From: Tetrahymena thermophila SB210
Lineage: Eukaryota; Ciliophora; Oligohymenophorea; Hymenostomatida; Tetrahymenidae
NCBI RefSeq assembly: GCF_000189635.1
Contig: NW_002476323.1
Location: forward strand, 180,998-244,997
Length of the DNA stretch: 64,000 nucleotides
Direction: 5' to 3'
Shown here: piece by piece, positions 1,127 to 61,528 of the stretch
How positions within the stretch are numbered: position 1 is the stretch's first letter
Layout of the letters: every line of letters begins with the position of its first letter
Notes under the pieces: generated by a model
The model's input: only the letters and a program-made list of their open reading frames with translations
What the model was told of the DNA's origin: nothing
Databases searched by the model: none
Program-made: the position numbers and the translations under genes

Positions 1127-1857
1127 TTGATAAGTAATCTTTATAAATTATTAACCTTTTTTCCTTTTTTTAATTTTCTTTTATAAATAAAAAATTGATT
1201 ATGGATATTTATTTATTGGTGTTTCTTTGATAGAATATTTTATAAAAGCTTGAATTCCTAAATATTAATTAAATTACACTCTTTACCAGCATAATATTCA
1301 TTGGTATTAAATCATAATATTATGAACACAAAAGAAAAAACAAATTTAACAAATTTCAAATAAACTTAGAATCCCTTTTGATGAATATTAAAAAATACTA
1401 TTCAATTGTAAAAATTAGCAAAAAATATTTTTTTTATACAAAACTTAAATGAATTAAAAATAAAAATTAAAATTATTAGTTAAATAATTTTATAATCAGA
1501 TACTAAATTAATTAATTATTTGCAATTTCATATTTCATAATTTGAAAAAAATTAAACTCATCAAAATAAAAAACTCCAAATAGTTTAACCTTTAATAAAT
1601 AAAAATATGATTTTTTAATTTATAATTTTTAATAATTACCACAAAAAAATTTATTCTATTTTAACTTTTTTAAATTAAAAAAAACTATTATAAATTAAAT
1701 ATTTAAATTGATAAAATTAAGTTAAGGAAATGTTTTAATTATTTAAAGATTATAAAGTTAATTAAAATTTGAAAATTACTAAAAGTAACAATTAATATGA
1801 AATTTGATACAAAATTATTTTAAACAATAAAATTTATTAAGCTCAAAAAAAAAAAAA

Positions 1858-4800
1858 TCATTTATTATCAGTTTAAGTATTTAATAAAGTTTTAGCCTAC
1901 TTAAATGTTTTTTGTGATTTAAATATTTAAGGGTCTTTTTAATTATCAGAAGTGATATTTTTAGCTTATAATATTTTATTTTTATGAATTTTGAATGCAG
2001 TCATTTAAATTACAGATTTACTTAGAGTTTAGCTTGGTTTATAGTAAACAATCGACTCTAACAAGCTCTTACTTTAATTAGGTAAAATATTCATATTAGA
2101 TTCTTTTTAATCTAAAAGATCTTCTGATTCCTTATCTTGTTTTTTCATTTTTTACTTTATCTTTTATATTATTTTTGGAAATTACAGTACGAGACTTGCA
2201 ATTATAAAGAATGGTATTATAAATATTTGAACTAAGCATAATACCATAATAATTACACTGATAATATTTAAATTTTATTAATCGTTAGTATTAAGGTTGT
2301 TTAAATCTATTTTATACTCTATTTAGTAAGCCAGTATTAGATAACAAATAAAAATTATAACCCAAATCAAATTTTACAGAAAAAGCTCAATATTATTTAG
2401 GTTTAACTTACTTGGTCTTCTTATTAAAACAAAAAGACTTAGAAGAGACTAGAAAATGAGGCATAGTATTATTTAGAAGAAGCAGTTTTAAAAAGGAGCA
2501 ATTATACAAAGTGGGATAATTATCAATTCTACAAAATCATTTATAAATATAAAATTTCTTGTAAAAAATAGAAGTTTTATGTAATCTTAAAGGTAACTTT
2601 AAAAGATAATATCAGGTAACGCAAGATCTATTTCAGATTTTAATTTTTCTTAATCTTTTTTTGAGCTTGGATTTATTAAAATGCTATGATTCATTTCTAT
2701 TAATGTCTTGTATGATGAAACTTCTTCTCTTTATTTTTAAAGGAAAAACTTATTGATGAAATGTGCATAGAATGAAAATGATCCAATTGAGTAAATGAAT
2801 ACAAAGCAAAAAAAGATCGATTTTAAAATAACCATGGCAATATCACTATCTATTGCATTATATGCATAGGATAATATTTGCAAAGTTATAGAAAAAACAA
2901 AAACTATGCTAAGAAATTCATGGATTTATAGAGTTAACAAACCTATTAATTTGTTTAGAAGCTTTATAAAAGTTCCTTGCTTATTTTACTGAATATAAGC
3001 ATCGATAGGTAGGCATAAACCTTTATAGAGATTTTAGAACTCTATGTCTTTTTATCTCTACTTTTTAAATGCAATAATAGATATAAGCAGAAGTAATAGG
3101 TAGACAAATAAAACAGGTATCATTCCACCTGCATTATTAATTATGCTGGTCTTGATTTACTCTAATTTAAATTTACCGTCTTAAAGAGGTCCAGAATACT
3201 ATTCTTCGTTTTCATTTAAGAAGTATGGGAAAATATTTATTTTGTTTAATAATGCTATTGGAGTTGTTCCACTTATAGATTTTAGAAATTAGTATAAAAT
3301 TTAAGGAAAAGGAAAATTAATCAATAATAGAAAATTAATTTTTTAAAGCGTAAATAAGATTTTGAATATCATATTATTCTAAGAAACAAAGGACAATGCT
3401 ATTGAGCTTGTAGTAGAAACTGCTATAGAAATGTATGAACTTATACCAGAGTATTTAGAAACATCTTAAACTTTGCTGTCTGGAATGCCAGAAGGAATCA
3501 TATCTCGAGAGCACTTAGAAGTATTTTAATTAAAGCTAAAATATTGCTTGCATTGTAAACATGATTAAATTTTGTCAGGCATACAAGTTTCACAATTTTC
3601 AATACATTTTAATAGACAAACGTTTGAATAATTATTTTAATCTTCTTTGTAGCCACTTTTGCATTAACACATTCCTTGTTTGTCTAAATATCTATTTTAC
3701 GAATCGAAACACCCTAAACATTCTTAAGTAGTCTTATCGCATATTTTGCATTTTGGATTACTACATATTTAACATTAGCTCACTCCGTTTTCATAGTAAT
3801 TATCTATGCAACTACAGACATTATTGATCAAAAACCTTTGATATTTATTCTCGCAAGTTAAACATTAATTGCTCGATCCTCCAAAGCAAGTTTAGCAGCT
3901 GTAGTGGCATTTAACGCAATTTTAAGTGCTATCTTCATAATAGCCATCTTAACAGACACATTAACCCTTATTATTAAGTATCCTGTTTTAATTAGTATCA
4001 CATTAACAACTTTATTGCTAATATTTGTACTCTACAAACCCTTTATTACAGACACACTAAGAATTAGATAAATGCCTAAAGTTACTTTAACTACAAGATA
4101 AACAATTAGATATTGTATTTCCTCCAATGCAAGATTCACATGTCAAATTACATGTATCACATTATGCTACTCCTTTATCGTAGTAACCTTAAATACAATT
4201 GCAAATTCCATTTTGAAGTTATCTTTTTTTTTAAATATCACACAAATTACATTAATTGTTACTTGGTCCATAACAAGTTAAACAAGAATAATGACATTAT
4301 TAACACGAGCTAGTAATTGAAGTATTTTCTGTATAACCTGGACTGCATAAACATTTAGTTTAACTTATAACTCGATTATTACTAGCGTTACAAGTAAGAC
4401 AGTCATTTTCTGATCCTCCACTACATGTTTAGCAAGTAACATGGCATGGTTTGCAGTTATATGAGTTATCTTCATAAAATCCATCCATACACTTGCAGCT
4501 ATTATTTATATCAGGTTTTCTATATTTATTTGAATCACATGTTAAACACTATTAGGCTGATATTCCTTTACAAGTTAAACAAGTTAGATGACAAGACACA
4601 CACTTTTATTAAGAGTTTTCTGTAAATTGAGCTACACAGTTACAAGTTTTATTAGAATTATCAAGCTCCCTATGGCCAGTATTTAAGTCACATGATTTAC
4701 AAGAGTTTATTTTTTCATCTGTGCAGGTTAAGCAAGTAGGATGACAAGGTTTACATATTAATGTATGATCATCATAAAATCCATCCAAGCAAGAGCACAA

Positions 4801-7501
4801 TTAGTCTTAAGTAAAAGTATATCTATTATTAATTGAAGTAATACTGCTATTACATGCTAAGCATTTCAGTTATCCACTTGAAATTTAGCATCCATTGCAT
4901 TAAATCGGACAATTAATACAAGTATTACTTTTTGAGTCAAAATATTAATTATTATTACATTAAACGCACTATTATGTTATTTAACTATTCTCTTAGTAAG
5001 TTTTTGAGCAGTCACATGTTTTATTCGTAACATTTAATTCTCTATGATCAGTATTTAAGTCACAAGATTTACAAGAGTTTATTTTTTCATCTGTGCAGGT
5101 TAAGCAAGTAATATGACAAGGTTTGCAAGTTAATGTACCATCATCGTAAAATCTATCTTAGCAAGAGCACAATTAGTCTTAAGATAAAGTATATCTATTA
5201 TCAGTTAATGTTATACTGCTATTACATGCTAAGCATTTCAGCTATCCACTTTAAATTTAGCATCCATTGCATTAAATAGGACAATTAATACAAGCTTTAC
5301 TTGTTGAATCAAAATATTAATTTGCACTGCATTAAATACATTGTTTAGAGTTATTTTCATAATAGTTAGCTTAACAATCACAAGTTTGATTTGGAATATT
5401 TAGTAGCCTATGGTCATTAATTGAGTCGCAAGATTTACAAGAATTATTTTGATTATTTAAGCAAGTAAGGCAAGTCGCATCACAAGATTTGCAAATCAAA
5501 GTACCATCATCATAAAATCTATCCTAGCATGAACATAATTTGCTTTATGTGTAATCTAACCTCTTGCTAGATGGATCTATACTATTAGAGCATGCTAAAC
5601 ACTCTATCTATCCATTAGAAATTTAACATCCGTTACATTAAATAGGACAACTGATACATTAACCTTTTAATGTATCTAAATAATAATTATTTATACATAC
5701 ACAATCTCCACTAGCATTTAGCATGAAATTATTTGTTGTATCACATTCTTTACATTTATATGGTGGTCCAGTATCTTAACATGATGTACATCCTGGATTG
5801 CAAATTAAGGGTACGAAACTAATTTCTTTAATTATATTTGAACTTTATGTTTTTATTTAATAGAAATAACTTACTTTAAATAGAATATTAATTCTTATTA
5901 CTTACATTATTACAATTGACTATAAAGTCTAAACTATCCTAATAAATAAATATATTTATTATTTTATGGTTATATTATTTTTACTGATTAATGTTTAAGA
6001 AAATAATTTAAAAATGTTTATTTTTTTAGTTATTTTTTAAAATTAACATTTTTAATTAATAATTTATTTTAGAATTTTGTTAATCGTTTAGTCATTTAAA
6101 CTATAAAATCTATTTGACAAATAAAGAATAGCAAGATATTGATTTACTGAAAATATGCTAGAAATCATAGGAGCGCATTTGACAACTGATGTCAAAGTAT
6201 CAGACTTAGTTAATTGTTTGTATCTATACACTAAATTAAATAAAATTGAAAAGTAAAATTGAAAAGAATAATTTAATATTACATTTTATATTAATAGTTG
6301 TTTTCCAGTATATCAAATTTTACTATTATCTAAAATAAGTAATTTAAGCTTAAGATGAAAGTGAAACTGAGGTGATAGAACTATCTACAGAAAATGCATT
6401 AGAGTTTAGTTAGTAGGCTTATATAGAATTAGAAATTATTCCTACCATAAATCTTCTATTTACTCCTATCTATAATCGATTTATAAAATTATTATATTTA
6501 AATAAAAATTTTACTCCAAATGAAAATAGAAAATTAATATCTCCATCTTTTAAGGCCACACCAAATGTAGTTTATGGTGAGAAAATTTTAGAAGTTCCAG
6601 ATATACTAAATACCGTTTTATCCCAACCTAAAAGTAAATGTTTATAATTCAAACTTTTTCAAATTTAAACTTACTTATAAGAATATTTTTACAAAGCCCT
6701 ACTATATTGTTATCCTACTATAAAATAATAAGAAGTTAGAATATTTAAAAATTATTAAACTAATTATACTAGAATATAACTCACAGAAAAAGTTTGATCA
6801 GTACAGCCATTAAGCTACCAATGAAATGTATTATCAAAAAAATCAATAACTTTTAATTAATTAATAATATCAAATATTTATTGATTAAAAATTGTAATAC
6901 TTTCAATAGCTCCATCTTCATATCCCAAAATAACCTTAAATATATTTGATTAAATCATTTTTAAATAATTCTAATGAATAAATAATTTTACTTTTGTTCC
7001 TTCAGCAGTATTAACTGAGGTAACTTATTTAGAAAAAATATATTTGTTAGAAAAAGATAAAGGATTTTGTTTATAATCTAAATAGTAGAGCGCAGTTTAA
7101 GTAAGCATTACAAATGTGCCTTGCTATATTTATTTGAAAGGATATATAATATTAAAATATATCTTTCAAACAAATTACTAATTAGTCTATACTTGTAAGA
7201 TTAGTGCAAATTGAATCTATTTAGTAGGCTTTAATGATTGTTGGATCACTTAAGGAATATACTTAGATTGTTTGATAAAAAGTATTTCTATAAAAAAGAT
7301 TGTTTTTATATTTAATTGATTACTGCTTAAGTAATAAGTGTTATTAGGATAAGCATGGCTTGCTGCAAACATAGATGAATTAATAACTAAAATTTGAGTA
7401 CTTAAATCAGAATCATCATATTTAACACTCTGCGCTACTATAACTGCTTTAAAAAGTGCTAATAAAGCAATATATATAAAAGATTATTATTGAATTATCA
7501 T
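1858..7501 (-). CDS. Signal-peptide, propeller-like, Cys-rich multi-pass membrane protein (~1,690 aa)
   Basis: Begins MIIQQQSFIYIALLALFKAV (signal peptide). Exons: 7501-7324, 7261-7179, 7123-6992, 6934-6901, 6849-6785, 6717-6675, 6627-6283, 6230 to about 6080, 5938-5875 and one 3,968-nt exon 5825-1858 ending in TGA; the acceptor and donor around 5.94-6.08 kb are unresolved. The first ~450 residues match the neighbouring secreted paralogue. The long exon then encodes many CxxC repeats of the growth-factor-receptor/furin-like type (about 50-residue units, DDxTLxCKPCHxTCLTC and relatives), followed by a C-terminal region with several hydrophobic membrane spans (FVYLLLLLISIIAF, LIIIPLCIIAPF, IIMVLCLVQIFIIPFF) and a charged tail. 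The fold matches the large ciliate surface proteins with Cys repeats. Ligand and function are unknown; surface reception or adhesion is a guess. Confidence 0.85.
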
Positions 7502-12708: not shown

Positions 12709-14228
12709 TTTAATCAGATAAAACTAAAATATATATGATTTGTCTATTTATAAAATCTAATTATTTAAGAATTTAGCTTTGTTTAAGTATCTTTTAGAAG
12801 ATTTATGTAATTATAATTAATTTTGATTGAATGTTTGAAAATATAAATTAATTTATTAGCACGCTAATATCTCTATTAGTAAAATAGTATTATATTTTTA
12901 ATTTATTTCAAATCTTCATATTATTTAAATAAATTATTTTATAATTTGTAAATTCATTTTATATTCTGATAAAAAATTTAGAATTAATTTCTTAAAAAAA
13001 TAAATGATTTAAATTTTTATTATTTTTTATGGAAAAAAAATTTACATCTTACTTAAATTATCACTCATTTTATATTTTATAATAATTTAGTATAACTTAA
13101 CTACTTTGATATGATGTAAAACAGTTTTAAGTAAGCATTATTGCTTTATAATAAATATTATTTTTATTAAATCTAAATAGTATTTAAAATAATTAACTGG
13201 GAAAAAAAAATATCATTTATCATAATTTACATAATTAACAATGTACATTTATTAATATCAAAAATATACATACTGATCAATTAATTTTAATAAAAGAGTT
13301 TTATTTTATATGATAATAAAAAATTTATATTATTTAAACAAATTTCAATATTAAAATCAATTTTAATTTTAGTTGTAATTAATTTATTTATTTACATATT
13401 TAAATTCGAAAAACACTTTAGGAAATTAATAAGTTTCTTTTTATATAATTTTTAAAAATCTTATGCCATCAAGTAATTCATCTAAATTTAATGATAAATT
13501 GAAATTATCTTACAATATTATATAATATATTCGGCAATTATAAAGAGTAAAAATAAGGTTTATTAAGTAATTTATTTTAAATTTATAATATGATGGAGAA
13601 TTCTGATCAAAAAAAAATTGTTGCAAATGTTTAAATTTATTTTTGCTATGAAATTAGAATTAAAAAACTTTTATGATAAATGATAATTATTAGCTGCTTG
13701 CTTCATTCATAATGAGTAAGATTTAGTAAATTATTTTTTTATCGGAGTGAAAACTAAAATTCTGTATCAATTTTAATATGAAAATCTAAAAATTTCTTTT
13801 TTATTTTTCATGAAAAGATTTAAATTTCGTCAGAATATACCGATTTCTGAAATAAAAGAATATCATATTTCGTAGAAACTTTAAGCGAAGATAAAATATT
13901 AATGTAAGGCTCTATAAGTTTAATGGATGGGTTTTGAAATACAAAATTGAATGAAAAAACAAGATAATTAATAGTGTAATTGTTAAAAATCAAGTATCGC
14001 AGTTTCATGCAATGCTTGGTTAAGCTATAATAAGGTAAATATTTGTTTTTATATTTGAGAAATTGTGTGAAATTCATTGACAGCTATTTATTTATTTTAG
14101 AGTGAGAAATTAAAATATAATTAATTCATTGTAGTCTAATAACTTAAATTAAGAATAACTAATTCAATTAGGATCTAAAAAGATATCAATCAATCAATCA
14201 TTTTTTAGACATACAAAATATTATAAGC
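12709..14228. other. Divergent intergenic region between URI and chitinase genes
   Basis: Holds the two promoters on A/T-rich DNA. Apart from one open frame at 13808-14077 (listed separately), no coding signal is visible. The 30 bases before 14229 look like an ordinary A/T-rich ciliate leader. Confidence 0.5.
13808..14077 (-). CDS. Possible 89-residue orphan protein
   Basis: An uninterrupted frame runs from the ATG at 14077 to a TGA at 13808. The product is rich in Tyr, Phe, Leu and Asn and has no recognisable domain or clear signal peptide. The region is slightly less A/T-rich than its flanks, which favours coding, but a single-stop code produces frames of this length by chance, and there is no paralogue or intron to support it. 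Confidence 0.25.
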
Positions 14229-15266
14229 ATGTTTAATATCAAAATTTCACAAAGTATCGGCCTTGTGCTGATATTTACTACTCTTCTTATTACAGGAGGT
14301 ATATTTATGAATGCTCTTAAGAAAGAAATCAATTAAGATGATGAAATGTTTACTGAAACTGGAAGTCGTAATTTCAGCGTTTGGTTGAAAGGAATCAACA
14401 TTCCTAAATCTCTTGAGCATATTGCTTATGTTTCTTAGGATAGAATTGACTAATGGCTCGTAGATATCACTAATGCTAGTAAGCAATATCCTACTTTCTG
14501 TAACACTGGAGATGATAAATTAGATAAGTACGAATTTGCTGCTTTCTTGACTATTATTGGTTCTGAAACTGAATTCACTTATGGATTCCCCTGTACTCAC
14601 GAATAGGGTTGCCCAGATTGCACTCATTGCTCTTACAATACCAATGGTCTTCAATGCCTTACTGATGATAAGCTTTAATATTTTGGCCGTGGTCCTGTTC
14701 AACTTTCATGGAATTACAATTATGCTGATTTTAGTTAAAGTTACTTTAAAGATGACAGACTTGTAAAAAATCCTACTTTACTTGATAGCAACACTGAATT
14801 ATGTTGGGCAAGCGCTGTTTGGTTCTGGATGGAAAGACACGATTATGGTGGCTGGTGCATGCCCTAAGCTGGTTGGGACTAGCACGATACTTGTGATGCT
14901 AAGTGTCCTAATGGTCCAAGTGGATGCTAACTTAGTTAATGCTCAGATGCTCATTGGCTTCCTAGAAAGTAAGGTTCATGCCATGATGCTATGCACTCAA
15001 GTGGTTCTATCGGATAAGTCATTAATATCATTAATGGAGGTTATGATTGCTGTCCTACAACTACTTACTTTGCTGGCTTTGGCCATACTCTTAGAAGAAC
15101 TGAATGGTGGGCTACCATAGTAGTTAATTGGGGATTAGGTCTTCCATGGACATAAGTAGACCCTGTACCTATTAATGAATGCCCTAGAGCTGTTGGTCAT
15201 ATCAACTGTACTCCTCTTAAAGATAATCCTGAAAATTGTTGGACTTGTTGCACTGAAAAGAATTGA
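14229..15266 (+). CDS. Secreted glycoside hydrolase family 19 (chitinase-like) protein (345 aa)
   Basis: GH19 enzymes cleave beta-1,4-linked N-acetylglucosamine in chitin or related wall polymers. One uninterrupted 1,038-nt frame begins MFNIKISQSIGLVLIFTTLL, a signal peptide. The family signature YFGRGPVQLSWNYNY is intact at about residues 149-163, followed by LVKNPTLLDSN, the aromatic WASAVWFWM and, later, GQVINIINGGYDCC, all in plant/bacterial GH19 order. The expected proton-donor Glu probably sits in IIGSETEF; the usual HETGG there is changed, so activity is not assured. Many cysteines suggest an extracellular disulphide-rich fold. It is intronless and clearly GC-richer than its surroundings, unlike most neighbours. 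A food-vacuole or secreted digestive role is inference. Confidence 0.93.
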
Positions 15267-21349: not shown

Positions 21350-23285
21350 TTTTTAAATCACAATTTAATAATTTTTTTACTAAAATATTGATTATAATTG
21401 AATCTTTTATTGATTTGATGGTTTTAATTAAAATTTTTTCTTGATAAAAGATATGCCACTTTTTGACGAATTAAATAGTCATTCGTGTTTCAATGCTTTA
21501 TAAGGAATAATAAAAATTATCTTTTATAAATTAATTAATGGGTATGTTTGGATTATAAAATTAGAATTTCATTATTATGAAATCTAAAATGCTTGAGCCT
21601 TTTTGCTGGATATCTTTACTATGCATTGGCAAGTGATTTTTTTGAATACGTGGATTCACTTCTATACAAATGACTTTTAAGCTTTATCAATAGTATCCTA
21701 TATATAGCATAAATTTCATTTTAAAAATTTCACATATAATTTTTAATTTCAAAAAACACACAATCTTCTTAAACGTGTCAATTAAAATAATAAATTTTGC
21801 CTTCTTTTTGTTTATATTCTACTTTATATTTGTCTATCTAAATGCTTTATAATCAATTTCATAAATTTTATTTAAATAACAATTTTAATTTTATTAAATA
21901 TAAATATTTGTTTTTAATCTATTTAAATTGTAAATATAAAATTATTTCATTAATTTTAAAACTTTAAATTTTATTTTCTTTTTAGCTAAATTAAATATAA
22001 AATTTTCAATATTAAAAAATATTTTAGATTTTTAAATATTTAATTTAATTAAATTCATGTTATAAAAAGTTTTATTTTTTGAAAGTTTGTTTTTTATTTT
22101 AAACAATAATTTTTACATGTTTTAAAAGTGCTAAGTTATTATAATTAAAGAATAATTTAATTTATAAGTTTTGAAATTAACTCCTAACCGATAGAATATG
22201 AAAATTTTATGTAATCTAAAAAATCAAAGAAATCCTGTAGAACGATTTAGTGTACATGCTATTCATTCTTCAATGCATATAATATATGTTTGGTATACTT
22301 TTAAAATAGTGTAGCTATAGTAAAACTATGTTAATAAAAAATAAATATATTTTATTAATATTTGATCAAATATAATTTTTGATATGTTATTCATAAAGTA
22401 TTTCCATTCGTTTATATTTTTAAAAGTAACAAAATTTTTTTTGATAATATCCCCCTTTTGCAAAATAATAAGGTGCTTATGACTTTAAATTAGCTTAACT
22501 ATTCATACAGTAAATTGTAAGTCTTAAATTTTAGTAATAGTCTGAAAAACAGCAAAATTAATGTGCATTTAATATATTTTGATGGCTTACTTGTAATCCT
22601 ATTTTACAAATGAAGTTATATGAGAAAAAGGACAAAATTATCAAATTAAAATATTCCTTCTGGAAGATATTTTACACATAGATTCGAGTTTTATACTAAG
22701 GAAAAATCAAATTGTCAGAATATTTTAGGATATCTAAGACTAATATCACGTTGAAAAAGATACATTAATCAAAGTTTTAGTGAAATATTAAATTAAATAA
22801 ATGTAAAAACATGAAAGAGTTATTAATCTTTTTCTTTTCTACAAACTCTTATCAAATATACACTCAATTTTATTTAGTTATTCATCTGAGATGGATATTA
22901 AAATTTGTAAACAAATAAAAAAACAAATCATGTTTTCATTTTTAACAAATAAACAAACAAGATATTGATTTTTTTGTTTTTAAATAAAAGCTTTTTGATA
23001 AGTCTTGAATGGAAAAAAATTGTAAAAAACAACAATTTATTTGATGTTTAATAGACAATTGCGAGAATTTCAATCACTTAAATAATAATTATTGATCGAG
23101 TATTTATCTATCTTATAATGGGTAAGTATTTTTTTATATACAGCGATGAAGATTTGTTTATTTGATGTAAAAAATAAATCATAATAAAAAATTAAAAATA
23201 AATAAAAGTAGAAAGAGAAAATCACACTCATTTTCTAAGCAATCATAAAATATAAAATTTAAGATAAGTTAGTTAGTATAATCAA
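21350..23285. other. Divergent intergenic region
   Basis: 1.9 kb between paralogue B (minus) and the PNP gene (plus); should carry both promoters. I found no exon, tRNA or snRNA that I could defend. A short C run at 22451 (CCCCC) and GC-richer patches near 22190-22310 have no explanation. Confidence 0.5.
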
Positions 23286-24268
23286 ATGACTTCTGTTTAC
23301 GACAACGCTGTTGAAGCTGCAAACTTCATTAAGACTAAGACCTCCCTTGTTCCTGAAATTGCTGTCATTTTAGGTAGTGGTTTAGGTGGTTTCGCTGATG
23401 AAATCGAAGAAAAGATTTACATTTCATACGAAGAAATTCCCCACTTCAAGAAGTCTACTGTTCAAGGACATGCTGGTAAACTTGTTATTGGTAAAGTAGG
23501 TGGTAAGGTAGTTGCTTGCATGCAAGGTAGATATCATTTTTATGAAGGTAATACTATGCAAGAAGTCGTTTTCCCTATTAGAGTTTTCAAGATTCTTGGT
23601 GTCACTAAAATGGTTGTCACTAACGCTTCTGGTGGTATTTCTAAGATGCTCTAAAATGGTGACTTGATGATCATTAGGGATCACATCAATTACATGGGAA
23701 GTAACCCTTTGATTGGTCACAACGATGAAAGATTCGGTCCTCGTTTCCCTGATATGAGTGAAATTTACAACAAGAAGCTCTCTAATATTGTAGCTGAACA
23801 TATGAGAAAGCTCGGATTAGGTGTAAAGACTGGTATCTACATCGCTTTCACAGGTCCTTCTTACGAAACCCCTGCTGAAATCTTAATGGCAAGACAAATG
23901 GGTGCTGATGCAGTTGGTATGTCAACAGTAAGACTTTATTTTATTTTTTTTGAAAGATTATTTTTGGTAGATAAAAAATATATAATTTAAAGTAGGTAAT
24001 ACAAGCAAAAAAGCCTACTAATTTTTAATTTTCAAATATGTATCAAACAAACAAACATTTGTGAACTAATTTATTATTTTTAAAATAGGTTCCTGAATGT
24101 ATCACTGCTAACCACATGGGCATTAAAGTAGTTGGTATTTCTTGTGTCACTAACATGGCTGCTGGTGTTTCTGAAAATCGTCTTACCCATGATGAAGTCT
24201 GTGAAACCGCTGGTTTTATGAGAGAAACTTTCAAAAAATTATTAAGAAACTTCATTCCCGATCTATGA
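23286..24268 (+). CDS. PNP: Purine nucleoside phosphorylase, trimeric type (273 aa)
   Basis: Phosphorolysis of purine (2'-deoxy)ribonucleosides to free base and (deoxy)ribose 1-phosphate, in purine salvage; ciliates rely on salvage because they lack de novo purine synthesis. Two exons, 23286-23927 and 24089-24268, give 273 residues, near the normal length of the family. Landmarks in order: phosphate loop ILGSGLGGFADE, STVQGHAGKLVIG, GRYHFYEGNTMQEVVFPIR, TNASGG, the base/ribose pocket FTGPSYETPAEI with the conserved Glu, MGADAVGMST, and VTNMAAG at the purine-binding Asn. One intron falls exactly after GMST. High G+C and even codon use suggest strong expression. No targeting signal, so cytosolic. 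Confidence 0.97.
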
Positions 24269-25308: not shown

Positions 25309-27575
25309 TCACTTAAGATGCAAGAGCATGGTGCTAGGATCTTCCAAATAAGATTTCCATTTATTAGAAAATTTAGTTACAGTAGCACCATCAACAACTC
25401 TATGATCGCAGCCAAAGCTAACATTCATCTATTTTTATTTAATTAATTATTTATTTATTTAATTAAAAATTTTGGCTCAAAAAGAAATATTTACTATCTT
25501 TCTTGGAGCTAGCTCTAGGTCTTCAACCTTAGGATCTAATGATTTATTGATATATCTAGGAAGGGTCATTACTCTACCTAAACCTACAATAGTTGTCTAG
25601 GGAGCAAATATTAAAGGACCAGTGTAAGTTCCACCAATAGTACCTAAATATAAAATTAATTCATAATTAATTAAAAATAAAATCTCTTAGATTTATATTA
25701 GAGTTTATTTATTTATTATTTTATAAAAAATATTTTTAAAATTCAAAAATTATTTGAAAACTTTTATTAAAATTAATTTTTAAACAAAAATTTTTTGAAG
25801 TTTTTTATTTTATTATTAATAATAAATATCTTTAATCTCTAATTTAATAAATCTAACTAAATTTGATTAAAATTTTTTGTTGGTAACTCTCTATTGCATC
25901 AGTAAAATTATTAAATAAATAATTACCTATATTTGAAATGCAAATAGAACCATCAAAAAGATCTTTGGGACCAAGGGTTCCAGCTTCTCCTTCTTTAACA
26001 AGTCTCTTTATTTCCTTTTAAATATCAAGTATAGAGAGATTTTGTACATTTTTAATATTAGGTACAACCAATCCTTTAGGTGAGTCAACTGCAAGAGAAA
26101 TATTGTGATTTTGTACTAAAGTGTATTCGAAAGGCTTGTTTACATCATATAGGGAATTCAAGATAGGATATTCCTTCAAAGCAAGAGAGAAGGCCTTGAT
26201 GAAGAAGGTCATGAAAGTAATACTTTAGTTTTATGATTTTTTAATTTATTCACGCAATACTGTTAAATTGGTCAAATCATATTCATCCTTTAAATACAAA
26301 TGAGGAATAGTATTTGCTTCAGTCATACTCTTTTGCATACCTTTCTAAAAGTCTGACATCTTAACTGTAGTTTTAACAGTTTCATTTAAACTATATTTAA
26401 ATTTAATATTATATTCATTAAAATATTCTAAATTATTTTTTTAAATCCTATTTTTATTAAAAATTATTAATTTTCAGTGATTTATTTTTGGCTATTTTCA
26501 ATATTTCTCTCTTTCCTTCATTTTATTGCTTTTTTATTTTTATTCAAAATTAATAAAATATATTTACACTCCTGATGAGGATGCAGTAGAAGCAGCTTTT
26601 GGCTTAGTAGTTTCAGGGGTAGAAGGCTTAGTTTTACCACTAATTATATCTAAAATATCATTCTTCATAACACGTCCATCTTTACCTGTACCTCTAACAT
26701 TCTTAAGATTGATATTGTGTTAACGAGCTAAAGAACGAACCGCAGGGGTTGATAAAACATAATCGTTTTCGTAAGTATTATCTACTACTGGTTAGCTCTT
26801 TTTAGACTCAGTAGAAGTAGTAGCACCTGAGCTGATTGTAGTATTTTCTTTCTTTTCTTGTTTAGCTTCATGATGATGAGTAGCAGTTGAAGCTTCTCCT
26901 GAATGATCCTCATCAACTTCAATTTCTACGAATACATCACCTACCTTTTAAATTTTTGTATTTTTGATAAGTAAATTCATTACTTAATTTGCAAAATGCT
27001 AATTACAAGACAGGTATCTTCTTCTTTGTGGAAGACTTTGTGGATTTTACCAGCATAAGAACTAGGAATTTAGGTGAATAACTTATCAGTGGCAACATCA
27101 GCAATTGTTTAAAACTTTGAATAATTTTTAAATTAAAATTAATCTAATTTTATGAAATATTTTGCTATTTTTTTAATGCCTAAATCAATCTTTATTATAA
27201 TTGTTTGTAATTACTTCTTCTACGATGTCTCCTTCTTTCACGTACAATTTTTTGACAGTGGCTTCCTTAATTTCTAGAAAATAAACATAAAAAGTTAATA
27301 AAAATGTATTCAATTAGTTATATCTAATAAAAAGATTAGAAAATATGTTTGCTTTCAATATCATTTTTTAATGCATTTGCTGAATTTAATCTAATGGAAA
27401 GGCTAAAGAATTAGTTCTCAATATAGCTAATTTGTATTTATGAAAATTATTTTATAAAATTACTTTCTCCTAAATCTGGTAACTTAAAGGGCTTAATAGT
27501 ACCGAAGTAGGCATTGAATAAATAATTGAAACTTTATCTCTACTATTATTGAACGAGCTTTCTAAAGGCAAACAT
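25309..27575 (-). CDS. DBT: Branched-chain 2-oxoacid dehydrogenase E2 (dihydrolipoyl transacylase), mitochondrial (462 aa)
   Basis: Core of the BCKDH complex, which oxidises the 2-oxo acids of Leu, Ile and Val. Seven exons (27575-27464, 27273-27215, 27114-27007, 26944-26568, 26390-25927, 25643-25495, 25428-25309) give 462 residues. Order: basic mitochondrial presequence ([10 protein letters not shown]...), lipoyl domain with the lipoylated Lys in [11 protein letters not shown], an acidic/His/Thr linker, the E1/E3-binding domain ([20 protein letters not shown]...[10 protein letters not shown]), then the catalytic domain beginning [20 protein letters not shown] and ending with the active site CDHRVVDGA and the typical C-terminus MLLHLK. 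FQKGMxKSM and IPHLYLKDE favour the branched-chain enzyme over the pyruvate or 2-oxoglutarate E2s. One lipoyl domain, as expected. Confidence 0.95.
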
Positions 27576-37530: not shown

Positions 37531-40500
37531 TCACTTTCTATCTTTTTTTCTGGAAGGAGATTGAGAAATTCTTTTTTTACTTCTCACAGGATTGCTGTTT
37601 GAAGAAAGGGATCTATCTCTATCACGGTCTCTTCTGTAATTTTAATTATTATTTGAGCTGTTGTTTTGATCCCTTGGCTTTTTTTCATCTTTTGATCTAT
37701 TACGAGATCTATCAGAGTTTTTATCTCTTCTATTACTATTATCATTATCATTATAATTATTTCTTTCATTATTATTTTACTGTTGATTGTCAGAATAATC
37801 TGAATCCTGGTAATGGTTATTATTATTATTGTATCTATTACTTTAATTATTATTAGCTTTATTATAATTACCTCTATTACCATTATTGCTTGAAGAGGAA
37901 TTGTTATTTTTATAATTACTGCTACTATTTTTGGGATTATTTCTGTTAATGTTACTGTTACTTTAGTTCTAGTTACCATTTTGATCATAATTATTATCAC
38001 CATTATTATTCCTCTTTCTGTTGTTATTATAACTCATATTGTTGTTTGAACGGATGCTATTGTTACTATTCATATTTTAGTTACTCCTGTTATTATAATT
38101 AGTATTACTGCTGTTATAGTTGTTATTCTGGTAATTTTTTCCTTTGCTATTATTTTAGGAGGTATTATATTTATTTTTATATCTATTATTAGAAGATTCT
38201 TCATTGTTTCTATAATCATCGTCATTATTTAACGAGTCTTAGTCATAGTTATTATCCTAATCCTCATAATTTGAATTATGTTAGGAGTTCACATCTTATT
38301 CATTATACTAGTGATCATCTTCGTTATCATCATAATTTTGTTAATTATCTTCGTTTTAGTTTTATTGATCTACATCGTTATTGTCCTAATTATTCATATT
38401 AGGATTAAAATTATTTTCATTATTGTTTGCCATTTTGTTGTTAAACATTTTATTCATTGAATTTAAGCCAGGAATCATAGGGTTTGGATTTAGCAAATTT
38501 AGCTTAACATCTTGATTCATTCCCACTAATAAAAATTAAATTAAATTAATATAAAATATAAAAACAAAATGTTAATTTACTAAATTAATTTGGTTTCGAA
38601 AAGTTAGGATTCATCATAGGCATAGCTCCCATAGGGTTCATACCTTAATATCCCATCATACCCATAAATGGTCTCATCATTCCCATATTCATATTTAATG
38701 GATTCATAAAACCCATCATTAGAGGAGCTGTTTTAGTACCTGGTCTTGGGATTTTAGAGGCTGCTAAAGCAACTGAAGGAGTAGGAGGTAATTTCTTTTT
38801 TAAATCTTCAGAAGAAACTTACTTATCTTCTCTAGACTTAATGTTATCAGAAGATTAATTATTGTTATTTTAAATATTTTATTCAGAGGAATTGTTAGAG
38901 TTAATCTATTCTTTCTGTTCTTAGTTATTGTTATTGTTGCTATTGTTTTGATTTGAACTGTCTTCATCATTTTAATATTGATTATTTTCATTCTCATCAT
39001 CTGAAAGGTCATCTTCTTTTCTTTTTTGATATCTATTATTACTTAAGCTTTCTCGGCTTTATTAATCATTGCTGTTGTGGTTATTGTACTCAAGCTAATC
39101 TAATTAGGATTTAGATTAATTTAAATACTCTTTACTACCATCCATAGACTCGTTTTCATTTTCTAATACAGCTTAGCTATTAGCTTCATTTGTTTAATAA
39201 TTTTCTTGATTTTCATCTTATTAATTTTAATATTCTTATTCAACCTCCATAACTTCAATTTAAGATTTTATCCTATCTAAATTACCTTCAGAATTTTCTC
39301 TTACACTTTGACCATCTTAACTTGCACTAGACTAAATCTAAGAAGCATTAATTTACTTTTTATAAGGTTACAGATCTTCTAAAATATTAAAAAAATCATC
39401 TTCTGACATCTCTATGGATTAATTATATTATTTAATATTTTCACTTAAAAGTACAGTTGTATCGCTATCACTATTAGATGAACTTTTACCTAATCCTGTT
39501 TAATTCATGTTAGGATTATTTATATCATAAATACTAGACAAATTATTGGTAGAATTTAGTTTAGCATCTTCTAGCTAATTAGCTGTATTAAATCTTGGAA
39601 TTTGGTGTTATGGGTTACTAATATTTAAGTTGTTTTGAGAAGGAATTCCTTGTTAAGGACTAGGCTATTAGATATTTTAAGATTAGTTTATAATTAACCC
39701 AGGATGAATAGATTGATTTATTCCTGCTTAATTAATCATATAGGAATTATACTAGTTTGTATTGTTAAATTGAGGATTATTTAAGTTTACTTTATTTAAC
39801 ATTTAATTTTATGACCAATCATTTAACTATGCAGCTTATCCACCTGACCCTAAATATCCTACTTCATCTGTATTTAAAGAAAAACGTAGACATAACTTTT
39901 TGCCATTTTCTGAATCTATTTCTTGGCAATCTTTTGGCTTGCTTATTAATTATTCATTGTTGCACAATGCATTCTTTAAATCAGAGCAATTTTGGTGAGG
40001 TAAATCTTCAACTCTTAGCCACCTTATCAAAAAATCTTCTCCTAATTTAATTGCTTCTGTTTAAATAATAAAACCAAATTAATTTATTTTTTCATTTAAA
40101 AAAAACTTACCTGTATTTTTCCAAGGTGTTTTGTAGCTGTTCTTATCTAGAATATGCTATTGCATTCTAGCTACACCTTAAAAGTAATTTGTCTTATTGA
40201 CACCGAATACTAAAATGACATTTTGAGTTTTCTTAAATGCATCAAATAAAGCTTTCTGCAATTAAAAAAATAAAAATTAAAAACCTTTTTTAAGTAATTT
40301 AAGTTAAAAATAGTACTTCATTTTTTTAAGTAGTAGCCCATATTGACTGTTGTAAAGCAAAAGTTATATTTTCTTAATTACAACTTCTTATAAAAAAGAA
40401 CCTTGCATTTTCTAATAAACTTTAGTACTCTTTATCAGAAGGAAGATTAAGATTTTCTTTTATCTTCCTGAGTTGTTCGTTTTTCATTTACATTTATTTA

Positions 40501-41440
40501 TCAGTCTATTATTATGTCAAACCACAAAAAATACATTTTCCATTACGTTTACTTTCATCTTTACAGGTTTTACAAATTTTTTTTGAGCAGCATTATGTTT
40601 TTTAAGGATTTTGACCTTAGCACTTATCACATTTTAAAAATTTATTATTAGTAAAGTTAGTGTTCATGCTATTTTGTTTTCTTTCAACAAATACACTTGT
40701 GTGAGCAGGAATTCTTTCATTGTCTTAGTATTCTCTCTGTTGATCAGAGCTATATATACAAAGTTCCTCCTTATGTCCTTTTTTGTTTAAAAAATAAATT
40801 AATTTTTTTGAATAAATTATTTTAAATTTAAAATATCTCAAATAAATGATTAATTAAGCTAAAATGGTCTCAAACAATTAAGCAGCTAAACCTTAAAAGT
40901 ATTTAGCTAATAAAGCTTTTTATTTTATCAAAAGTTTTTTTTATTATAAATCTGCCAATTATCAAAAATAACTTTTTTTTAATTGGTATTTTAATAAATA
41001 ATTGAAAGGAAAACTTTATTCGATTTATAAAAGTAAATTTATTCTCTTTAAAGTAAATTTTTTAAGAGAATAAATTTAATTTATGTGAAATTAAGTTCAA
41101 TCATGCAAATTTATCTTTAAAAATTAAATGCTAGATTTTCAATATTTATTTTAAAAGCAAAATCTTTGATTGATTAATTAATTGAATGAAAGAATGATTG
41201 ATTATTCTTATTTGATATATATAATTTCGAATCTATTAGTCTTTAATAGTTCAGTAGTGATTTGAGAATAATGAATATATATTTATTTATATATTTGAAT
41301 ATGATTATTGAGTATTATGCAGTACCTAACTCTTGGCTGATACGTTTTTTTAGCTCACTAACAAGAATTATTTATCCTTCTATGCTGATTCTGTATTTTT
41401 TGTTTTCTGAAAGTAGTTAATAAATAATATCACCAGCCAT
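37531..41440 (-). CDS. DWNN - C8 RING - YTH domain fusion protein with RS/Asn-rich tail (1,063 aa)
   Basis: Five exons (41440-41326, 40777-40317, 40255-40111, 40056-38581, 38525-37531) splice in frame. Residues 1-73 form a DWNN ubiquitin-like domain: IIYQLLSENKKYRISIEGQ, SELKKRISQEL and, after intron 1, EYQDNERIPAHTSVFVERK. Next is CxxC-x9-CC-x4-CxxC-x9-CxxC (CDKC...CCSKKICKTC...CIFC), the cysteine spacing of the RBBP6/Mpe1 RING. Then comes a YTH domain: ENARFFFIRSCNQENITFAL, QQSIWATTQ, VILVFGVNKTNYFQGVARMQ, TPWKN, FLIRWLRVEDLPHQNC, KPKDCQEID. Trp residues in SIWATT and TPWKN fit the m6A cage. The rest is acidic/Asn-rich, then Met/Pro-rich, ending with SR/RD-rich SQSPSRKKDRK. Likely a nuclear m6A reader in 3'-end processing (inference). 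Confidence 0.9.
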
Positions 41441-55409: not shown

Positions 55410-58400
55410 ATGAAATCTTTGAATAATACTTCTCAAAAGCAGGATTAACTAACAGCTAATTCATAAAATGAAAAGAAATAAAATATTTAGGTTTATATTA
55501 GGCTAAGGCCATTTTTACCTCATGAAGAATAAGAGGATGTTGTAGAAATAAAAAGCGAAGTAATTATTTATTAAACAAGGCAATTAATTATCAATTTATT
55601 ACAACATTCAAAAAAATATAAAATAAAAAATGATATTTATTTGAGCAAGAAATGAAATAATTTCATTAAATATTTGTAATTCATATTAAAGCTAAATGTA
55701 TTTAAATAGGAAAAAAAAATTCTAATAAAAGATAGTCTTCATTTAATGGAATCAAAATTTGATCAAGCATTCGATCCAAGTCAAAATTAAAAATAAGTAT
55801 TCGAAAATTTTAAGCCCTATCTGTAAGATATATTAGATGGTTATAACTTCACTGTTTTTGCATATGGTTAAACTGGTTCAGGTATTTATTCTGCATTAAT
55901 TTAAAATACCTGTTTTTTATTGGAATTTAGGTAATAAATAATATTTTATTTTTGGTAATTAGGCAAAACACACACTATGTTTGGAGCTGATTGGGAATAT
56001 ATGAGTGGACATTAAGCATATACAGGAAGAGATTTGAGAGTTTAACATTAATCTACATTCTTTGAATCACTAGAATCTGATCATAATTTTGCTGGAATAA
56101 TACCTAGAACCATATATGAAGTTTTTAGATAAATAACTCTCAAAAGAGAATAGAATCCTCATATGCAAATATCTGTTTATGTATCATTTATTCAAATTTA
56201 CAATGAAAAAATATATGATTTGCTTCAGGTAAATTTTTATATTACTTTCCTTAATCTTAGTTTGATCAAGTAACTTATCTAATTTTTAGTCAAAGTTACT
56301 AATCTTTTTTTTATATAAAAATTTAAATTAACTCAAATACCATGTTAAATAAAGGATAATTAGAAGCCTGTCGCTTTAGCTATACATGAGAATAAACAGT
56401 CAGGCATGTATGTTGGTAAATTATTTATTTTTATTTTATAAATTTTGAAATCACCAACAAATTAAAATAGAAGTTTGTGAAAAAAAATTTTAGCATTCCT
56501 CAAAATATTTCATATAATTATAAACTTTTGATCTTGTTTAAATAATTTGTATGAAGAGTAACTAAAATGATATATTATTTTTTACTTCTTAGTTATCAAA
56601 AGGAAGTGTAATTTAAATATTTTTAATTACAAAATGATTATTTTTACTCATTTCTATTTTTTAGAAGGTTTTAGATTTATTTTTGTTCTTAGAATAATAT
56701 AGTCATATATATCATTTTCATATATAGAAATTTATAAAAAATATGATTAATTCTATATTAATTTACTATTAATAAATAATAAGAGGGTTTATCTGAATAT
56801 TAAGTAGCTCACTATTATGATAGCTTATAATTAATGAGAAGAGGAGAAAAAAATAGAGCTATTCGAACTACATAAATGAATGTAAAAAGCAGTAGATCAC
56901 ATACTATTTTCTAACTATAAATAGAGAGAATAGATGACAGTGAATATTAAAAAGAGAAAAAAAAAATTAAAGTAAATTAATCTTCATTTAATTTGACAAT
57001 ATGTTTGTTAATCTGATCTCATTGATAATCAAATAGCGTTCAAAAATTAATTTATGTGATTTAGCAGGCTCAGAAAAAATAAATAAGAATGAAGTTATGG
57101 GAGGAGAACATTTTAATGAGTTAAGAAGCATTAATTTATCTTTAACAACTCTAGGTAATAAGATCTAAACATATCAATTATTTAGATTTTTATCATTTAT
57201 TTTTTTAACTGTAATATTGCTTGAAAAAATAGAAAATAATATTTAAATTATTTTTTAATCAAATTGGTAATGTTTTTCCAATCTAAACATTATTGCATTT
57301 AAATTTAATGGATATTAAAATAAATACATCTAAATAATTATTATTATTTATATAGGCAAAGTTATACACTCTCTAAGTAGCAATCAAAAGCTACCTATTC
57401 CATACAGGGAATCTAAGCTTACCCGTATCTTGTAAGATAGCTTAAGTGGGAATTGTTAAACTTTTATTATTGCAAATATTTCTCCTTGCTCTAATAGTTT
57501 AGAAGAAACCCTCTCAACACTAAAATTTGCAGAAAGAGCTCAACATGTAAAAATAATAACTTTTATATTTTAAAGTAGATTTTGCTAATATAATTTAAAA
57601 TTAATAGATAACTTTAAAGATTAAGCCAAACGAAATAAATGCATCAGATTTTTAAATAGTACAAAAGCTCTAAAGAGAAGTAAATTAAAATCAAATTAAC
57701 AAGGCTTTATAGATAATTAATTAATGAACTTATAATAGATAAATTACTTAAAGGATTTGCTTCATATGAAAAAGAAAGGAATCAATCCAAATGATATCCA
57801 TTAAAGATTATTAAAATTGCAAGAGGAGAATGAACGTTTAAAGAAAACTCATATATCTATAAATGAAGTAGAGAAATTGATTTAAGAAAATAGATAAATG
57901 AAATTGGAAATCACAAAAATCTAATAAAATACAGTATAGTCTATGCGTGGGATATTTGATGATTCTAAGACTGATAAAGATACTTTAAAGACACTTGCAG
58001 AATCTAAAAATTTATTAGATTAAGAAATCTTACTGAATAAAATTAATTAAGGAGATTAAAGCGACCACTTTTTTTTAAATACAAACTCATCTAATCAAAT
58101 AATCCTACCACCAATATAAGTAAAACTTAATAACCAGATTAAAATTTTGATATAAATTTTCATTTTTTAACTAGATGAATAGCAACGATAATATTAAAAT
58201 ATTATTTGGTACTTCTTAAGAAAAACCTTTCAGCTCTTATAATCCTTCTGTTAATAGCAGTAGTTAGAGAGGGACTTTTATAAATTCAGGAAAACAGATG
58301 ATGAGAAATGTTTTAGATAAAAAAACTGAATTACCTATGAGAATAAGAGGAAAAAATAATGAAATAAAAAATGAAAAGGGTTTCTTGGAAATGAGCAATG

Positions 58401-58874: not shown

Positions 58875-60311
58875 GCGAATTAAGTAATTGGCATTTAGCA
58901 AAATAATAAATATTAGTCAATCAATTATTAAATTTAATTATTAAAACACAAAATAAAATAAAATAATAAATGATATAATTTACAAATCAAAAATTTAACT
59001 TATTTAAATTAAATAATTTTATATAACAACCATAAAATAAACGAGTGAATAAATAAATAAATAATAAATGAATGAATGAAATATATATTTACTAAATTAA
59101 AAAGTTAAAATTATGTATATAAGGTTTTGATTTAGTTTGTATATTTTCTTTAATTTACTCACTTTTAATTATCATATTTCATAATCTTATTCTATTAATT
59201 TAATGAATATAAATAATCCAATAAGTAAATGATATTTTATATAAATAAATAAAAATTTATAAATGAGTGTTTCAGCAATATCTCTCTATAATTAATATTT
59301 TGTGTTTTCCACAAATAGAATTCATTAACATAACTAATTTTATAAATTATAGGAGATTTTAAAGTTTATAAAGAATCAGTTATCATTAAAAAAATAAAGA
59401 TTATATAATTTCCATAAATTTAAATCAATACTGCAATAATTAATTAAATAATTAATTTTTAATCCTTAGATAAAGTATTACTATTTTGATTTTTTTTTTT
59501 GAGATTAATTTGGTATAATTTTAAAAATTATCATTGTTTAAATATTTTAATAATTACTAATTTGTATTGAGAAACCCTATTTATCTCTTCAGTTAAAGGG
59601 AGATATTGTTAAAATGTAAATGGATAAGAATTTTTAAATAAATTAATTTATAATTTAAGAAAATTAATTTCATCTACATTAAAAAATTAATAAAATTTTT
59701 AATTTAAAACTTGAAATAATTTCTCCATATTTAAATTTCATTTTAAAACTCTATCTTATGTATTTATTGAATCTTAATTATAAATCATAAATAAATTATA
59801 ATATATATGCATAAAAGGTAAAAAAATAAAGTAGTTAAAATTTCTTAAAATAAATTAAGAATATTTAAATACAAAAAATAAATATAATATATTGACATAT
59901 TAAACATTTAAAATTAATATATTTTAATTACCTTAAAAATATTTAATTAAAATATTGCTTATGGTTAAGACCTAACTTTAATTTTATTTAAAAAATAATA
60001 AAAATTAATTTTAATAATTCAAAAATAACTTGAAAAGAAATAAAAAATATTTTATAAATTAATTTTTTAAAATATTTATAAAATAATGTAGAATGAAATA
60101 TCAATAGATTTTTGTTAATTTTATATATGAATAAAATGAAATTATCAATCAAATCGAAATTTTTAGTTATAGTATCTTATTTTTAATTCGTTTTCTTATT
60201 TTTAAATGTTATTTATTTATTCAAATATAATAAAATTTCGTTGCTTAATTTATTTTGTTTATTAATATAAACTCAAAAGTTTAAATAGTTACCTCCCATT
60301 CAAAAGAAACC
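58875..60311. other. Intergenic region between kinesin and MCU genes
   Basis: 1.4 kb, among the most A/T-rich parts of the window, with AAAT/GAAT tetranucleotide runs near 59045-59085. One open frame from 59263 is judged chance. No gene called. Confidence 0.5.
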
Positions 60312-61528
60312 ATGCACAAGTTTTTAGCCTAGGCTTTTTGCAAATAAAATAGATTTTATAAATTTCCATGCTACTCATTCTCAAAAATCTAAGATAAAGT
60401 GAGTAAGAATATCTATTTAATCTATTAAATTCATTACTCAATTTTATATCAGATAATTTTTAAATTACTAAGAGATGTTCACAAAAAAGTAGTGTGAATT
60501 GTTTTTTTTAACGTATTTTATAAATAGTTGATGTTCTAAGATTAGAATTTGATGAAAAAGGCTATTTTATTAACTTCCCTGGGCGTACTATGCCTGTTCC
60601 TTTAGATATGTCAGTGTCAGAAGCACAATTAGATCTATTTTAAAAATACCGTTTTGGTGAAATCCACTTTTTTAACAAAGATGGAGATTCTTATGCTGTA
60701 TCAACTCCTTTATAACTAATCATATAGGATGATTTCTATATAAATCTTGAAAACTAATTTTTTTATGTTGTAAATACGTTGAATTCGCATAATGTTGCTT
60801 TGGGAGTTTAAACTATTCATGACACAAACTTCAATTACAAAAAAATAAAAGATTTTTGCTAAGTAGGAGGACATACAATGCAATAATAAAATGTTCTTTA
60901 AGAGTTTTTTGGGGAGTTTGCAGAATATTTAAAGAAAGACTCTAAGGAATTGATTGATAGATAGCATTTAGATCTTGTTATTAAATCTGTACTTAATAAA
61001 ATGTCCATAAAAAACTCTCATCGCATTTAATAATTAGAAAAATTAATACAAGTAGTTGAAAAGCGCCTTTCTAAAGAAGAGACAGATAAAAAGGAATTAG
61101 ACGAGACTCTTGTACAAAAAAAGATGAGAAAATTCTTTAAAAGATTCTTTGGTGTCGTTTTAGCTCAAATAGGTTTAGTATAATATGGCACATACGTATT
61201 CATAAGTTGGGACTTCATGGAACCTATCACATGCCTTTTAGGTATATCTGATGCTATTATTGCATACAGCTATTGGCTTTTCGTTAACAAAAAATACGGA
61301 TACGATACTTTAGCTGAACGTAAAATAGCAAAAATATAAAAAAGCAAATATTATACAAGAGAAGTAGATGAATCAGATATTTTTGCTAAAAAAGACATTC
61401 TAGACTATCTCTATAGATAAAAATATTACCACTCAAATTCTTTGTTTGAGGTTTTAAATATTTTTGCTGATGAAAAAGATTTAGAAAAATTCACTCAAAA
61501 AAACAGTTATCTTTCAAATGATAAATGA
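60312..61528 (+). CDS. MCU: Mitochondrial calcium uniporter pore subunit (363 aa)
   Basis: Ca2+-selective channel of the inner mitochondrial membrane. Exons 60312-60402 and 60528-61528 join in phase 1 to 363 residues. The first exon gives a basic presequence (MHKFLAQAFCKQNRFYKFPC). The matrix domain follows (VLRLEFDEKGYFINFPGR onward), then a coiled coil (LEKLIQVVEKRLSKEETD), then TM1 (FFGVVLAQIGLVQYGTYVFI), the pore signature WDFMEP (WDxxEP, with the Asp and Glu of the selectivity filter), TM2 (CLLGISDAIIAYSYWLFV), and YGYDTLAERKIAK, the usual Y-rich helix after TM2. The ~90-residue C-terminal part is helical and charged. No EMRE or MICU gene is present in the window. Confidence 0.95.

Follow-up and report, generated by a model that had tools for sequence, protein, structure and literature searches.

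The DNA analyzed here is a window of 64,000 nucleotides (nt) from the ciliate Tetrahymena thermophila SB210 (contig NW_002476323.1, positions 180,998 to 244,997 of the forward strand; coordinates below are those of the window). Its main subject is a gene on the minus strand, at 41440-37531, whose predicted protein joins a DWNN domain to a YTH domain of the kind that reads N6-methyladenosine (m6A). When read with genetic code 6, in which TAA and TAG specify glutamine, the five exons lead from an ATG at 41440 to a TGA stop that ends at 37531 and encode 1063 amino acids. All four introns run from GT to AG, and they are poorer in GC (7-17%) than the exons (26-30%). A preliminary description of the stretch had placed a gene at 37531-41440 with a first intron of 548 nt, and the minus-strand gene model agrees with it on both points. 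For intron 2, a version of 29 nt (donor 40284) was dropped in favor of one of 61 nt with the donor GTACTA. With the longer intron the joined residues continue like known YTH domains, a choice made by judgement.

Both domains were found in a Pfam scan of residues 1-331. The DWNN domain is matched with an E-value of 1.4e-9 (38.5 bits against a cut-off of 26) and the YTH domain with an E-value of 2.6e-37 (128 bits against a cut-off of 22.1), which bears out the earlier proposal that one spliced frame joins the two. Each half of the DWNN domain is below the cut-off by itself: exon 1 covers profile positions 1-32 with 19.7 bits and exon 2 covers positions 41-72 with 16.7 bits. The halves are in the correct order, and the cut-off is passed once they are joined. 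Exon 2 alone also matches YTH profile positions 1-30 with 26.2 bits, above the cut-off. Because this exon by itself carries the second half of the DWNN domain, a cysteine-rich finger and the start of the YTH domain, the fusion hardly hangs on the splicing model. That it carries them in a single open frame of 461 nt removes most of the doubt about separate transcripts. Two findings that would have spoken against the fusion had been named beforehand, the absence of a DWNN profile match and a separation of exons 1 and 2 from the YTH exons; the DWNN profile matches at 38.5 bits and, in the sequence, exon 2 holds parts of both domains. The exon 1 peptide was also ranked among the 1254 ATG-started peptides of the window. 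It comes first against the N-terminal half of Mpe1 (score 56, runner-up 36). When only the RBBP6 piece is used it scores 30 and is overtaken by other window peptides, with scores of up to 39, so that the comparison gives a clear answer for Mpe1 but not for RBBP6. Judged from the sequence, the DWNN-YTH fusion is well supported as real (Table 1).

Table 1. Positions of the exons, introns and domains of the DWNN-YTH gene within the window.
Feature	Position	Strand	Evidence
Exon 1: initiator Met and N-terminal half of DWNN, residues 1-38 plus base 1 of codon 39	41326..41440	-	DWNN profile, Mpe1 comparison
Intron 1, 548 nt, 16.6% GC	40778..41325	-	in-phase junction gives back complete DWNN
Exon 2: second half of DWNN, eight-cysteine finger and start of YTH, single open frame	40317..40777	-	DWNN and YTH profiles
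DWNN domain (PF08783), residues 5-71, split by intron 1	40680..41428	-	Pfam 38.5 bits; closest solved structure that of yeast Mpe1
Eight-cysteine finger, C88 to C123	40524..40631	-	cysteine pattern; not recognized by RBBP6 RING profile
Intron 2, 61 nt	40256..40316	-	gene model
Exon 3: middle of YTH including cage residue W237	40111..40255	-	gene model
Intron 3, 54 nt, multiple of 3, frame open if retained	40057..40110	-	gene model
YTH domain, residues 163-299, contains introns 2 and 3	39881..40406	-	Pfam 128 bits
YTH cage codons N175, W185, W237, L245	40370-40368, 40340-40338, 40123-40121, 40045-40043	-	
Exon 4: last part of YTH, followed by low-complexity sequence rich in N/Q/S and in Met/Pro	38581..40056	-	gene model, tail scan
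Intron 4, 55 nt	38526..38580	-	gene model
Exon 5: N-rich tail, RS/RD-rich end, TGA stop	37531..38525	-	gene model, tail scan

The DWNN domain points to the Mpe1/RBBP6 family. A scan limited to residues 1-75 raises the match to 41.5 bits, and the DWNN-like ubiquitin fold of the preliminary description is upheld by a profile match over the cut-off. The best solved structures are those of Mpe1 (E-values of 7.8e-5 and 2.1e-4), followed by RBBP6 (0.83) and ISG15 (0.86). The domain stands at the N-terminal end of the protein, and the alignment begins at Met1 of Mpe1. In the whole 101-Mb genome the DWNN model has no match at E <= 0.001 and a single one at E <= 10, which lies in exon 2 of the DWNN-YTH gene (25.8 bits); the genome searches for DWNN, RBBP6 and the zinc knuckle can miss domains that are interrupted by introns. 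With that proviso, the gene is single-copy, as expected of RBBP6/Mpe1. The DWNN domain is reported in the RBBP6 family only, at least in the part of the source cited here (PMC1360078). A query of the genome with the human RBBP6 sequence led to five RING loci, all of which were read as other RING proteins and none as RBBP6. The query is what we take to be the human sequence, and the labels PCGF-like and TRAF-like given to RING loci are readings by eye.

The YTH domain resembles that of CPSF30 most closely. Its best solved match is a CPSF30 chain (1.1e-22, 83.8 bits), presumably that of Arabidopsis, followed by YTHDC1 (78.0 bits), YTHDC2 (64.5 bits), a Toxoplasma CCCH-type protein (61.6 bits) that we take to be CPSF30, YTHDF3 (60.0 bits) and other YTHDF proteins. 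The lowest matches are Methylated RNA-binding protein 1 (49.0 bits) and Mmi1 (29.7 bits and lower). Pairwise scores give 223 for CPSF30, 205 for YTHDC1, 177 for YTHDC2 and 131 for YTHDF1. The residues predicted to form the methyl-binding cage are kept as W185, W237 and L245, together with N175, so that the earlier statement of at least two cage tryptophans holds. We assume that these residues have the roles of W377, W428, L439 and N367 of YTHDC1, and that YTHDC1, too, has leucine at the third position. The genome contains six YTH matches at five loci. One of the other loci is YTHDF-like (L009), one scores best with YTHDF1 (L008, 108 against 98 for YTHDC2, from fragments) and one is ambiguous (L010, 93 for YTHDF1 against 87 for CPSF30, also from fragments). 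Among the five, the DWNN-YTH gene is the clear case of a CPSF30/YTHDC1-type domain with a predicted intact cage. The remaining locus, L007 (G000 C115:142000-151000, open reading frame (ORF) 1253-5551, minus strand), carries a YTHDC2-like YTH domain in which the first cage tryptophan is replaced in the alignment with YTHDC2. It possibly encodes an m6A-blind YTH protein, and the tail after its YTH domain is very long, N/S-rich and RS/RD-rich.

Between the two domains lies a finger of eight cysteines (C88, 91, 101, 102, 107, 110, 120 and 123) with the pattern C-x2-C-x9-C-C-x4-C-x2-C-x9-C-x2-C. The order of the cysteines equals that of the RBBP6 RING consensus, C-x2-C-x11-C-C-x-[NS]-x2-C-x2-C-x12-C-x2-C (PMC1360078), with shorter x9/x9 spacing and a lysine at the N/S position. 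In the scan of residues 1-331 the finger has no Pfam match. Against a profile of 49 RBBP6 RING sequences it scores -0.8 bits, and 333 of 500 cysteine-preserving shuffles score as high or higher, while five other RINGs from this genome reach 16.7-39.0 bits. The profile consists of 48 distinct sequences taken by cysteine pattern from the DWNN-profile matches and one further sequence; it is made of close relatives, so that a very divergent RING could escape it. A TRAF-like RING of this genome agrees with the cysteine pattern as well. The finger alone has chance-level matches only in the PDB, and alignment of the whole protein with RBBP6 gave nothing usable past the DWNN domain. Of the RBBP6-type C8 finger proposed earlier, the cysteine order stands, and kinship is not supported by the sequence. 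The finger is probably zinc-binding, of a kind that is unproven.

The zinc knuckle of Mpe1/RBBP6, noted earlier as missing, is indeed not found. A CCHC pattern search of the whole protein gave none, PF13696 has no match in residues 1-331, and neither the stretch from the DWNN match to the finger nor the part past residue 296 contains a cysteine. Since only 16 residues (72-87) separate the DWNN match from the first cysteine of the finger, the knuckle and the sensing region that follows it in Mpe1 cannot occupy their usual place. In the genome, the zinc-knuckle model gave 12 weak matches, none above the cut-off, which is weak evidence given that the CCHC stretch beside the CPSF30 fingers described below is not among them. 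Because of the zinc-knuckle result, we call the protein Mpe1-like rather than a bona fide RBBP6/Mpe1.

The long tail (residues 314-1063) matches no Pfam family at E-values up to 1, and zf-CCCH has no match in residues 1-331 or 314-1063. The tail is rich in asparagine (25%), and its last 100 residues contain six RS/SR and ten RD/DR pairs; the RS-type tail of the preliminary description is therefore limited to the end. Met/Pro-rich segments (MNPMMNMM-like) occur in the tail at about 38600-38760 (minus strand), in L007 and in the Fip1 relative of this genome, and might represent an interaction motif common to the three.

The same genome encodes relatives of the machinery with which such a protein would work. 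A CPSF30 relative (L039 on contig C78) has five CCCH matches, and its best PDB matches are CPSF4 (2.4e-13) and Yth1 (6.8e-13), with the pieces joined at guessed junctions. Contig C78 has no YTH match at E <= 0.001. Two other CCCH loci were rejected as CPSF30 candidates, one on C279 with four CCCH patterns and an unrelated remainder of its ORF and one on C173 with only three patterns. CPSF73 (L043 on C91, 6e-29) and Fip1 (L044 on C178, 44.6 bits) also have relatives. Relatives of all three subunits of the cleavage and polyadenylation specificity factor (CPSF) that were sought are thus present, whereas a paper on Paramecium bursaria, in the part cited here, describes the cleavage stimulation factor (CSTF) and CPSF as absent and suggests that 3'-end processing in ciliates may proceed by a distinct mechanism (PMC12862383).

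For the methylation side, relatives of METTL3 (L011, 7.9e-39) and METTL14 (L012, 1.4e-20) were found. They belong to a set of four MT-A70 loci (L011, L012, L013 and L014 on C190, C248, C179 and C184), comprising a METTL3-like one with a zinc-finger region, a METTL14-like one with a DPPW motif, one that we take to be MTA1-like and one that is unclassified. Of the 115 positions over which the MTA1-like fragment aligns with its best-matching solved MT-A70 chain, 52 are identical. Writers of m6A in RNA and of N6-methyladenine (6mA) in DNA may therefore coexist in this genome.

We suggest, with moderate confidence, that the product of the gene is a divergent, Mpe1/RBBP6-like component of the machinery that cleaves and polyadenylates mRNA in the nucleus, without a zinc knuckle and with an m6A-reading YTH domain, and that it would act as an m6A-reading activator of the CPSF73 endonuclease. 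What supports this is at the level of sequence: the fusion, the identities of the DWNN and YTH domains, the kept cage, the one DWNN match in the genome, the relatives of CPSF73, CPSF30, Fip1, METTL3 and METTL14, and the CPSF30 contig without a YTH match. The function is plausible and cornered by its context, and it is unproven. In yeast, the ubiquitin-like domain of Mpe1 binds Ysh1/CPSF73 by the active-site tunnel (PMC6436931). By homology, the DWNN domain would dock on CPSF73 beside the active site, and the finger and the disordered tail may aid assembly. The YTH domain, with its predicted intact cage, would bind m6A placed by METTL3/METTL14 near the 3' end and so give the subunit an m6A-dependent RNA contact, through which methylation would help to position and license cleavage. 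The proposal that the reader is attached to the Mpe1-like subunit instead of CPSF30 agrees with a YTH domain on the one and none on the contig of the other; its extension to ciliates at large is too wide for the one genome seen.

Two proteins that form a single chain in one organism are often found to interact in others, and in this case fusion and interaction both occur in alveolates. In Toxoplasma, YTH2, a YTH protein without the zinc fingers of CPSF30, pulls down the RBBP6 orthologue with 6 and 8 peptides in two replicates (0 and 0 for YTH1), together with CFIm25 (2 and 3 peptides), and its discoverers left open its part in 3'-end formation (PMC8354455). The fusion may thus be a covalent form of the YTH2-RBBP6 pair rather than an independent invention. 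This weakens the independent route to m6A-guided 3'-end processing that had been proposed at first. Since the two Toxoplasma proteins co-purify, the partnership may go further back in alveolates, so that only the joining into one chain would be new here, and the fusion in turn suggests a role for YTH2 in 3'-end formation.

Several observations weigh against this assignment to the cleavage machinery. Of the three hallmarks of RBBP6/Mpe1, the zinc knuckle fails and the RING is unproven, with the negative profile score given above. Phe9 of Mpe1, at the interface with Ysh1, is replaced by leucine. As far as the cited part of the Toxoplasma report goes, YTH2 did not bring down other CPSF subunits (PMC8354455). 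No fused relative has come to light either: none of the 90 database matches of the YTH profile lists PF08783, none of the best 120 of 661 DWNN-profile matches lists PF04146, and a protein search whose query covered 778 of the 1063 residues found none. A local scan of the YTH and DWNN proteins that were fetched found none with both domains, and scans of viral and genomic contig collections gave no relative. The named entries in the YTH and DWNN lists are animal proteins and have little bearing on ciliates.

Some of these points would suit a nuclear m6A reader like YTHDC1, acting in splicing or nuclear RNA sorting, with the DWNN domain as a mere protein-binding fold and no place in the cleavage machinery. 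Such a protein could well have an RS/RD-rich end, no zinc knuckle and no detectable RING kinship, and YTHDC1 is almost as close to the YTH domain as CPSF30 by both measures. We nevertheless hold it to be unlikely, because the DWNN match is the only one found in the genome and belongs to a domain reported in the RBBP6 family only (PMC1360078), CPSF73 and CPSF30 have relatives here, and Toxoplasma has a YTH-RBBP6 association (PMC8354455). It is more improbable still that the protein is a true Mpe1-like subunit whose YTH domain binds unmodified RNA, as in Mmi1 of fission yeast, with m6A having no role. The third cage position is leucine rather than an aromatic residue, and the lost tryptophan of L007 suggests that reading may be lost in the lineage, but W185, W237 and N175 are kept, the leucine presumably matches YTHDC1, METTL3 and METTL14 have relatives in the genome, and Mmi1 is the weakest of the solved YTH matches. 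An artefact, in which a wrong gene model or assembly has fused two adjacent genes, is very improbable even with a single assembly behind the model and no relative recovered in searches, since the one open frame of exon 2 carries parts of both domains, and the reading frame is maintained wherever GT..AG introns, which are richer in AT than the exons, separate the halves of DWNN and the three parts of YTH.

The divergent Mpe1-like subunit that we favor can be set beside four known systems. It shares with Mpe1/RBBP6 of the cleavage and polyadenylation complexes (CPF/CPSF), which has the order DWNN-zinc knuckle-RING, the DWNN domain from residue 1, the single genome match and a cysteine-rich finger after DWNN; it differs in lacking the knuckle, in a finger sequence unlike the RBBP6 RING and in the added YTH domain. 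Like CPSF30-L/CPSF4-YTH of plants and apicomplexans, which has the closest solved YTH domain, it carries an m6A reader covalently on a protein of the cleavage-machinery type, but the carrier is a DWNN protein without a CCCH match, and CPSF30 is a separate gene on a contig without a YTH match. It resembles Toxoplasma YTH2 and RBBP6 in the association of a CPSF30-like YTH with an RBBP6-type protein, in one polypeptide instead of two. With YTHDC1 it has in common the W-W-L cage, by what we take to be the YTHDC1 numbering, and the RS/RD-rich end; YTHDC1 presumably has no DWNN domain.

In plants and apicomplexans, 3'-end formation is known to be steered by m6A by way of the YTH domain that CPSF30 carries (PMC8354455). 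In the DWNN-YTH gene a reader of that kind sits on a protein that by homology touches the endonuclease, in an alveolate whose CPSF30 relative has no YTH match on its contig. According to a review, T. thermophila is one of the organisms whose poly(A) proteins show no YTH homology (PMC9778586), and the DWNN-YTH gene shows where such a link could hide. No description of a DWNN-YTH protein was found in the portions of the open-licence literature that were searched. In Mpe1, contact with pre-mRNA is ascribed to the zinc knuckle and the RING, and the polyadenylation signal, once bound, is sensed by the stretch that follows the knuckle (PMC9380774). It is conceivable, though we hold it only tentatively, that m6A licenses the endonuclease module in this lineage, the YTH domain having taken over from the zinc knuckle and pre-mRNA-sensing region of Mpe1, and that a single ancient m6A gate on CPSF73, apart from the CPSF30-YTH gate, exists in alveolates in two forms, as the fusion in this ciliate and as the YTH2-RBBP6 pair in Toxoplasma.

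Elsewhere in the window, ten ORFs were scanned against Pfam. Matches were found to the phosphorylase superfamily (23166-24218, plus strand), an E3-binding domain (26501-27085, minus strand), a kinesin motor (56944-58326, plus strand) and the mitochondrial calcium uniporter (60140-61525, plus strand). An uninterrupted ORF of 386 amino acids at 14106-15263 (plus strand) matches class I chitinase (GH19) with 66.8 bits. Its GC content of 35% is the highest among the listed window ORFs of at least 180 amino acids, and it is a candidate for gene transfer.

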